Part shown: positions 35,657 through 41,026 of the stretch, piece after piece
How positions within the stretch are numbered: the first letter of the stretch is position 1
Layout: each line of letters begins with the position of its first letter
Origin: Candidatus Bathyarchaeota archaeon
GTDB taxonomy: Archaea > Thermoproteota > Bathyarchaeia > RBG-16-48-13 > JAGTRE01
Direction of reading: 5' to 3'
DNA length: 62,196 nucleotides
Assembly (NCBI GenBank): GCA_018396415.1
Contig: JAGTRE010000008.1
Location: forward strand, 4,663-66,858
Position numbers and translations under genes: made by a program
The notes under the pieces: model-generated
Told to the model about the DNA's origin: nothing
Database searches by the model: none
The model's input: only the letters and a program-made list of their open reading frames with translations

Positions 35657-35757
35657 AACAATCAAACCTCAAGTGAAATGATGAAGAGAAGAATTTAAAG
35701 GGCTTATGCATGTTTCTATGTAAAGGTTTCACCTCACATATGAACTAGGGATTGAAA

Positions 35758-37023
35758 ATGGTTGAAATTTGGCTCCCATACGGTAAGACTGAGGTTCCAG
35801 TTCGAGTACCGGACGAAAACTTGTTAGGAGTTATTGAGCCAAAAGAAAAACCAGGCCTACCTGACCCAAAGTCCGAAATACAACGAGTATTAGCCAACCC
35901 AATCGACTCGAAACCATTAAGCGAAATAGCTAAGCCTGGCAATAAGGTCGCAATAGTTGTAGACGATGCAACAAGACCAGCGCCCAGTTACATTATGATT
36001 CCGCCCATTCACGACGAACTAAGAAAAATTGGTGTCAAAGATGAAGACATCACAATAATCTTCGCATGTGGAAATCATCGACCTGTAAAACCTGAAGAAA
36101 TACCTGGATTAATTGGAGATGAAGCAGCGAGATGTGTAAAGACCGTAAACCATGATTGCAAAGCTCCCGACCTTATTGACGTGGGAACCACTAGCTTTGG
36201 AACACCTGTCTATCTCAACCCCAATTTTGTAAAAGCAGATGTTAGAATCCTCACAGGTGATGTCGAACTACACTACTATGCTGGTTATGGGGGTGGCCGA
36301 AAAAGTGTCCTCCCGGGTATTGCCAGCTTAATCTCAATCCAGAAAAATCACGCCTTACTACTCCACCCAAACGCTAGGACAGGCGTCCTTAATGGAAATC
36401 CTGTACACCAGGACATGATGGAGGCAGCTAAGTTGGCTAAGGTAGATTTCGCCCTTAATATCGTAATGAATGCAAAGAAAGAAATTGTTGGAGCATTCGC
36501 CGGGGATGCCGAGAAAGTATTCTTTGAAGGAGTAAAACTAGTTGATGAGATGTATAAAGTCAAAGTCGACGAACCAGCTGACATAGTCATAACCGCAGCG
36601 GACGGTTCACCTCATGACATCAATCTATATCAAGCCCATAAAGCACTTGATAGCGTGTTAGATATCGTTAAACAGGAAGGGGTTATCATTCTGGTTGCAG
36701 AGTGCCCGGAAGGCTATGGCAATCAAGTTTTCTATGATTGGATGATTAAATTTAAAACTAGACAGGAAATGGAAAGAGAAATCAAAAGACACTTTGAGTT
36801 AGGTGGCCATAAAGCCTATTATTTGATGAAAACCCTAGAAAAGGCTAAGGTAATTCTGGTTTCTACGATGCCAGACTACTACGCATCGGGTGTTTTTCGA
36901 CTAAAAACTGCGAAGACAGTTAACAGTGCATTACAAGTAGCATTCAATATAGTCGGAAAAAAGGGCAAAGTCTGGGTTGTCCCGCATGGATCTACCACAC
37001 TTCCAATCCTAGCTGAGAGGTGA
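35758..37023 (+). CDS. larA: LarA-family nickel-pincer racemase/epimerase
   Basis: About 421 residues with LarA family features: 'VAIVVDDATRPAPSYIMIP', 'ACGNHRPVKPEEI', 'GDVELHYYAGYGGGRKSVLPG' (with the Lys that bears the nickel-pincer nucleotide in LarA) and 'ITAADGSPHDINLYQAHKAL'. LarA uses a nickel-pincer cofactor to racemise lactate or epimerise other hydroxy acids. No larB, larC or larE cofactor genes are adjacent. The natural substrate cannot be inferred. The ATG at 35758 is preferred to a TTG at 35752. Confidence 0.88.
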   Translation: MVEIWLPYGKTEVPVRVPDENLLGVIEPKEKPGLPDPKSEIQRVLANPIDSKPLSEIAKPGNKVAIVVDDATRPAPSYIMIPPIHDELRKIGVKDEDITIIFACGNHRPVKPEEIPGLIGDEAARCVKTVNHDCKAPDLIDVGTTSFGTPVYLNPNFVKADVRILTGDVELHYYAGYGGGRKSVLPGIASLISIQKNHALLLHPNARTGVLNGNPVHQDMMEAAKLAKVDFALNIVMNAKKEIVGAFAGDAEKVFFEGVKLVDEMYKVKVDEPADIVITAADGSPHDINLYQAHKALDSVLDIVKQEGVIILVAECPEGYGNQVFYDWMIKFKTRQEMEREIKRHFELGGHKAYYLMKTLEKAKVILVSTMPDYYASGVFRLKTAKTVNSALQVAFNIVGKKGKVWVVPHGSTTLPILAER

Positions 37024-39214: not shown

Positions 39215-41026
39215 TTGGTTATAAACTTGGGTCGCTGCCGCATCTGCGGATTAACCTCACGCTTGATCTCAGATGGATTAGGATTATGTCTGCAATGTAT
39301 TAGGGAAAAGCCAGATGAAGCACTTCAAGAGTCGCTTAAAGCCCACGCCGAAAGTCGAAGCCGATTTGGTCTTCCCCTGTTTCCTCCCAAAGATCCTGAA
39401 GGAATTGCATGCGGCATATGCATGAATAAATGCCAAATCGGACCTGGAAAACGGGGCTTCTGTGGACTCGTAACTAACATAGATGGCCGCCTCATCCGAT
39501 TCGGTGGAACACCTGAAAAGGGAATCTTAGAGTGGTATTATGATCCCTTACCCACTAACTGCGTTGCATGGTGGTTCTGCGCGGGATGCACAGGGCTTGG
39601 CTATCCTAAATATGCGTATAGACAAGGAGCCGAAGTTGGATACTCAAACCTTGCTGTATTCTACGGTGCCTGCCTACCAGAATATGAGAAACTGTTTGCA
39701 ATAATCTACGACAAACCAACAATTATTAGCATAGGTAAACTTGTTACAGGCATATTAAAAGAAGACAATGCAGATGATGTGTCTTTTACCCCTTTTATTT
39801 TGTCAAGGCCACGTACATCTATTAAAGTTGCGGGATTAGATAACAATTGCAAGATAAAATACGCGCCGGTAAGCAGGGTTTCAAGAAGATGGTTTGATGG
39901 GCGACTCATAAAGATCACCTTGGGAATTGGATGCACATTACATGTAACTCCAGATCATCCTATGCTAGTTTTGCAGCAGAATAAATTCGCCGTAATAAAT
40001 GCTGACCAGCTTAATATTGGAGATTATGTACCAATTGCAAAGAGGCTACCCAACCCCACTCAAGATGCGGATGAATTAGACCTAGCTAAATTGAAGACGA
40101 AGGACTCTGATCGCAAAGTTATAGTAGGTTTGCCAAATATAGACAGCCAGAAGATATGCTTTCAAAGATTAAAAGTAAGACCATCCCATCCGACCAATTT
40201 TCTTTCTTATCTAATAGAAAGCGATGTCCATCCTATTAAAGTCAAGCGCGTAGATTCTATCCCCTACAAAGGATATGTCTTCGACCTAGAAGTAAATGAT
40301 CCAAATGCCCCTCTAGCTACATTTATGCTGGCATCCGGTGTATTCATCCATAATTGCAGTTTTGATTGTCTTTTTTGTCAGAATTGGCATTATAGGGCGC
40401 TTTCCTCTCGGTTGCAACCAGTTATAAGTGCGGAAAGCCTAGCTGCAAAATCCCATGCTAGAGTTTCATGTATCTGCTATTTCGGGGGGGATCCATCCCC
40501 TCAGATGCCTCATGCCCTCAGAACAAGTGAAATTGCTTTAGAAAAAGCGAAAGAGGAAGGCAGATTACTGAGAATTTGCTGGGAATCGAATGGATATATG
40601 AATGAGGCTTTTACGGAACGTGCTGCTAGGTTGTCCTTTGAAAGTGGTGGCACTGTTAAATTTGATATAAAAACATTCAATGAAACTTTGAATCAAGTAC
40701 TTTGCGGGGTCTCCAATAAACCTACCTTGGAGAACTTCCGCAGAATTGGTGAAAAATTCTTCCGTGAGCGGCTTGAACCTCCTGTCTTAACCGCCAGCAC
40801 TCTATTAATACCAGGTTACATCGACGCCGAAGAGGTAGGCCAGATCGCAAACTTTCTAGCTCATATCGATTCAAAAATTCCATATACTCTTCTTGCTTTC
40901 TACCCGCAATACATCATGTACGACCTTCCAACAACTAGCCGTCAATTAGCTCACGAATGCTTAGAAGCAGCAAAAAAGGCAGGATTAGAACAAGTTAGGA
41001 TTGGGAACATTCACTTACTCTCTTAA
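39215..41026 (+). CDS. Radical SAM protein interrupted by an intein
   Basis: The 603-residue precursor would splice to a radical SAM protein of about 375 residues. The N-terminal part holds many Cys pairs ('CRICG', 'CLQC', 'CGICMNKCQIGPGKRGFCG', 'CAGCTG'), suggesting extra iron-sulfur clusters or zinc. The SAM-cluster motif CSFDCLFC (381-388) follows directly after the intein, so its first Cys is the +1 extein residue. The C-terminal part is a partial TIM barrel like pyruvate-formate-lyase-activating enzymes ('FGGDPSPQMPHAL', 'KFDIKTFNETLNQ'). The target is unknown. A TTG start is used. Unspliced protein would be inactive because the cluster motif is displaced. Confidence 0.85.
   Translation: MVINLGRCRICGLTSRLISDGLGLCLQCIREKPDEALQESLKAHAESRSRFGLPLFPPKDPEGIACGICMNKCQIGPGKRGFCGLVTNIDGRLIRFGGTPEKGILEWYYDPLPTNCVAWWFCAGCTGLGYPKYAYRQGAEVGYSNLAVFYGACLPEYEKLFAIIYDKPTIISIGKLVTGILKEDNADDVSFTPFILSRPRTSIKVAGLDNNCKIKYAPVSRVSRRWFDGRLIKITLGIGCTLHVTPDHPMLVLQQNKFAVINADQLNIGDYVPIAKRLPNPTQDADELDLAKLKTKDSDRKVIVGLPNIDSQKICFQRLKVRPSHPTNFLSYLIESDVHPIKVKRVDSIPYKGYVFDLEVNDPNAPLATFMLASGVFIHNCSFDCLFCQNWHYRALSSRLQPVISAESLAAKSHARVSCICYFGGDPSPQMPHALRTSEIALEKAKEEGRLLRICWESNGYMNEAFTERAARLSFESGGTVKFDIKTFNETLNQVLCGVSNKPTLENFRRIGEKFFRERLEPPVLTASTLLIPGYIDAEEVGQIANFLAHIDSKIPYTLLAFYPQYIMYDLPTTSRQLAHECLEAAKKAGLEQVRIGNIHLLS
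39671..40354 (+). other. Mini-intein (no homing endonuclease) in the radical SAM gene
   Basis: This segment encodes 228 residues, precursor 153-380. Block A is 'CLPEYEKL' with nucleophile Cys153. Block B is 'CTLHVTPDHPML' with the TxxH residues. Block F is 'YKGYVFDLEV'. Block G ends 'ASGVFIHN' with penultimate His and terminal Asn, followed by +1 Cys381. There is only a short low-similarity linker (about 280-335) where a LAGLIDADG endonuclease would sit, so the element can splice but not home. The insertion point is immediately before the CxxxCxxC motif that binds the catalytic [4Fe-4S] cluster, a conserved site as inteins prefer. Confidence 0.88.

Follow-up and report, generated by a model that had tools for sequence, protein, structure and literature searches.

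The window, that is, the whole stretch of 62,196 nucleotides analysed here, carries on its forward strand a single open frame (39215-41026, 603 amino acids as listed) encoding the precursor of a radical SAM enzyme with an in-frame intein; homolog N-termini suggest that the true start would be the TTG at 39227. A LarA-like (lactate racemase family) gene is located upstream, at 35752-37023. The precursor consists of three parts, all on the same strand. The N-extein (39215-39670), whose sequence ends in ...SNLAVFYGA, harbors two conserved cysteine clusters (C4/C7/C21/C24 and C62/C65/C69/C79, extein numbering) as well as C112/C118. The intein occupies 39671-40354, and the C-extein (40355-41026) comprises the radical SAM core, recognized by Pfam and with pyruvate formate-lyase-activating enzyme (3c8f, E 4.8e-9) as the nearest solved relative by sequence. 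The C-extein contains all three cluster cysteines, contiguous in the motif CSFDCLFC (CX3CX2C, 40355-40378).

A first-pass annotation of this DNA had described a 228-residue intein with blocks A, B, F and G, and its limits prove exact to the base. Position 39671 opens Cys1, the block A nucleophile (39671-39673), and 40354 closes Asn228 (40352-40354), which together with His227 forms block G (40349-40354). Block B is a TPDH (39947-39958, Thr93 and His96), with T and H columns that are invariant in the 10 inteins aligned, and block F contributes Asp205 (40283-40285). The Cys+1 codon (40355-40357) opens CSFDCLFC, hence the first cluster cysteine is indeed the +1 residue, as had been claimed. In the alignment with nine other inteins, which also places Cys1 and the block F and G residues, the catalytic residues Cys1, TPDH, Asp205, His227-Asn228 and Cys+1 are all intact. 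Block F (ATFMLASG) lacks the His often present ahead of block G, a substitution common to the same-site copy of Bathyarchaeota ILS 300 (see below). Internal cysteines are found at intein positions 60, 88 and 163.

Concerning domain and fold evidence, the open frame matches Pfam Intein_splicing (E 1.4e-14) and Radical_SAM (E 2e-14), both exceeding the gathering cut-offs, and NCBIfam matches support the intein reading as well. When the intein was searched alone against Pfam, Intein_splicing (E 1.3e-15) was the sole match and no endonuclease domain was found, in agreement with the earlier description of an intein devoid of endonuclease; LAGLIDADG sequence is confined to the ILS 300 copy. By sequence the intein matches solved mini-inteins at E 1.8e-13, and its AlphaFold2 model adopts the intein (HINT) fold, with the TFIIB mini-intein 5o9i as top PDB match (E 8.8e-14). 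Mean pLDDT of the model is a moderate 69, lowest in the linker and exteins and low at residues 145-190. Given the splicing-domain, solved mini-intein and fold matches, chance is not a serious alternative. The sequence and fold features of a class 1 intein are present, i.e. Cys or Ser at position 1, the TxxH of block B, the Asp of block F, a terminal His-Asn, Cys, Ser or Thr at +1 and the HINT fold, and the splicing domain stands without a homing endonuclease, as in mini-inteins. The data thus confirm that the open frame carries a real, exactly located class 1 mini-intein.

The host protein belongs to the radical SAM superfamily, with its CX3CX2C motif lying inside the radical SAM domain, and is a member of an uncharacterised archaeal family whose N-terminal part bears several conserved groups of cysteines. 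Assignment to the AmmeMemoRadiSam radical SAM enzymes (TIGR04337) was considered and rejected, since the protein scores 65.8 bits with its intein against a curated cut-off of 220; uninterrupted homologs, at 60-62 bits, also fall under that cut-off. Each cluster cysteine shows a frequency of 1.00 among 109 aligned homologs, and the window extein keeps these and the other conserved cysteines. Our literature searches on this host gene found no report.

Homologs were taken from 120 relatives, from 398 genomes sampled across the phylum, and from a genome collection. The earlier proposal to survey for intein-free homologs was borne out by more than 100 uninterrupted genes, nearly all archaeal with a few from Chloroflexota, which run straight across the site as NLAVFYGA/CSxDCLFCQNW (the slash marks the insertion point). 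A motif scan gave 107 loci, some genes being fetched twice, in which NLAVFYGA or a close variant is directly followed by C..DCLFCQN. Of the loci examined, the window gene and that of Bathyarchaeota ILS 300, a genome that surfaced in the class-level search, are the only two with an intein at this point. A second, intein-free copy is lacking in the own genome at E<=1e-40, and relatives of the window intein elsewhere in the phylum, searched at E<=1e-9, amount to weak matches to other inteins. An assembly artefact was judged unlikely, since an independent genome carries a related intein at the identical position. A third same-site candidate, L118, was discarded, its long match being two adjacent uninterrupted radical SAM ORFs. 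The inteins of L038, L039 and L040 were likewise discarded as same-site alleles: they are different, endonuclease-bearing inteins located in a paralogous radical SAM gene at HVTN/CCAAWFC, where L038 ends at a contig edge and reveals its C-terminal junction only. Between L039 and L040 the inteins are nearly identical and the exteins differ more.

The ILS 300 intein (WUQV01000217.1; locus L046, the same gene as G579:C216) lies at exactly the same insertion point in the same gene family and shares 109 of the 227 aligned intein residues (48% identity) with the window copy. The two differ in that the ILS 300 copy, of 517 amino acids, retains a LAGLIDADG endonuclease domain (LAGLIDADG_3, E 2.4e-14). 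In the window intein the corresponding place between blocks B and F, as judged by the alignment and low pLDDT, is taken by a disordered linker that appears to be the endonuclease scar (residues ~130-175, 40058-40195), and linker sequence is kept on either side of the missing domain (DELDL... and ...LIESDVHPIKV). Since ILS 300 has a LAGLIDADG intein at the same site and the window copy keeps both linkers, the latter most likely descends from a homing element of the ILS 300 kind by loss of the endonuclease. The extein tree joins ILS 300 to the intein-free L060 (support 100/99), and the window gene branches elsewhere. As the two intein-bearing host genes are not sisters, the intein distribution in this tree is patchy in the manner of a homing element, and may have come about via transfer, loss or both.

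Taken together, sequence comparison argues that the window gene very probably holds a splicing-competent, endonuclease-deleted class 1 mini-intein inside an uncharacterised archaeal radical SAM enzyme that is the only close copy found in its genome. Its ancestor would have been a LAGLIDADG homing intein targeting the DNA for the conserved NLAVFYGA-CSxDCLFCQNW motif, with the endonuclease lost afterwards and the flanking linkers left behind. Excision after translation would follow the standard route, i.e. N-S acyl shift at Cys1, transfer to Cys+1, Asn cyclisation and S-N shift, and would leave the first cluster cysteine free to bind the [4Fe-4S] cluster. A degenerate intein that has lost splicing and leaves the enzyme inactive would be in keeping with an endonuclease already gone, and a dead gene that is the only close copy could pass unnoticed if dispensable; nevertheless, with the frame open, every catalytic residue in place and the cluster and other conserved extein cysteines all intact, we regard this as very improbable. 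For the splicing-competent intein, we infer active splicing, inactivity of the unspliced enzyme and no dedicated redox control.

The last point touches on the suggestion that, splicing and cluster binding sharing one cysteine, redox state could affect both maturation and activity. The dual role itself stands, one thiol serving both splicing and cluster, whereas the implied redox control is not supported. Inteins require Cys, Ser or Thr at +1. They also tend to insert near active sites, with a mean distance to active-site residues of 8.3 A as compared to 21.1 A for other C/S/T sites (PMC3359363). Dual use of Cys+1 is hence expected of inteins. A native redox-trapped intein has been reported for Pyrococcus abyssi MoaA, where an N-extein cysteine is bonded to Cys1 (PMC10663303, review). 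In the window precursor no such trap cysteine lies near the splice site: Ala, Gly and Tyr occupy positions -1 to -3, and the closest cysteine of the N-extein lies 28 residues upstream of the junction. Moreover, intein Cys60, Cys88 and Cys163 are missing from the ILS 300 intein in the alignment.

A conditional mini-intein, in which oxidation, metal or premature cluster loading occupies Cys+1 (or Cys1) and maturation needs the right redox or iron-sulfur supply, could draw on the published MoaA trap and on Cys+1 being a cluster ligand; with the three ligands lying together in the C-extein, a feature specific to this site and unlike tetraether lipid synthase (Tes), the precursor might in principle bind a cluster that would block Cys+1. 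The distant N-extein cysteine, the internal cysteines that the same-site intein lacks, the more than 100 homologs managing without an intein, and insertion at active sites being the rule (PMC3359363) weigh against it, and we consider it improbable. In its form as a maturation gate, transesterification would have to compete with whatever occupies the precursor Cys+1, be it a cluster, a metal or oxidation, and splicing would thereby report iron-sulfur or redox status. This version appears a long shot; if true, its mechanism would differ from the disulfide that the N-extein of MoaA forms. Splicing may respond to redox state or to the cluster, and redox gating is an idea that can be put to the test but has no specific backing.

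The window intein is mostly ordinary in being placed just ahead of an essential cysteine, as usual for inteins. Other inteins of its own genome, found by search only, likewise occupy what we take to be active-site motifs. A 197-aa mini-intein (L042:2694-3374) interrupts a nucleotide sugar dehydrogenase at GGH/CIPQ, its +1 residue being the GGHC cysteine, presumably the catalytic one. A 177-aa mini-intein (L043:2541-3161, reverse strand) lies at GHVDHGK/TTLVQ, presumably the P-loop (GHVDHGK/TT), of a GTPase that we take to be initiation-factor-2-gamma-like. Finally, an intein of ~415 aa with endonuclease-like sequence and an approximate N-terminal boundary (L041:3131-4468) resides in what is presumably an MCM helicase. 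The site described here is new, and so is the host gene for inteins; it extends intein insertion to an uncharacterised radical SAM family of archaea and provides a natural set of empty, endonuclease-bearing and endonuclease-deleted forms of one site.

Among known systems, the Tes inteins (NCBIfam NF045703; L152, L153 and L154, from G168, G125 and G154) resemble the window intein in their radical SAM host, in a cluster cysteine at +1 and in the occurrence of both full-length (453 aa, L152) and mini forms (235 aa, endonuclease-deleted, L153 and L154 of the same genus). They differ in that +1 is the third cluster cysteine and not the first (CNFSCWY/C), so that the motif is split, and in having an N-extein cysteine at -3. 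Other members of that genus have Tes frames of intein-free length. Together with Tes, the window gene shows that inteins have invaded radical SAM motifs at more than one cluster cysteine, making interference between cluster chemistry and splicing directly testable. The intein of P. abyssi MoaA, which we take to be a radical SAM enzyme, shares the type of host. Compared from the review, it also has a proposed redox response, while its disulfide between an N-extein cysteine and Cys1 has no counterpart here (PMC10663303). The closest solved mini-intein by both fold and sequence is the TFIIB Mvu mini-intein (5o9i), which resides in another host protein and is 23% identical.
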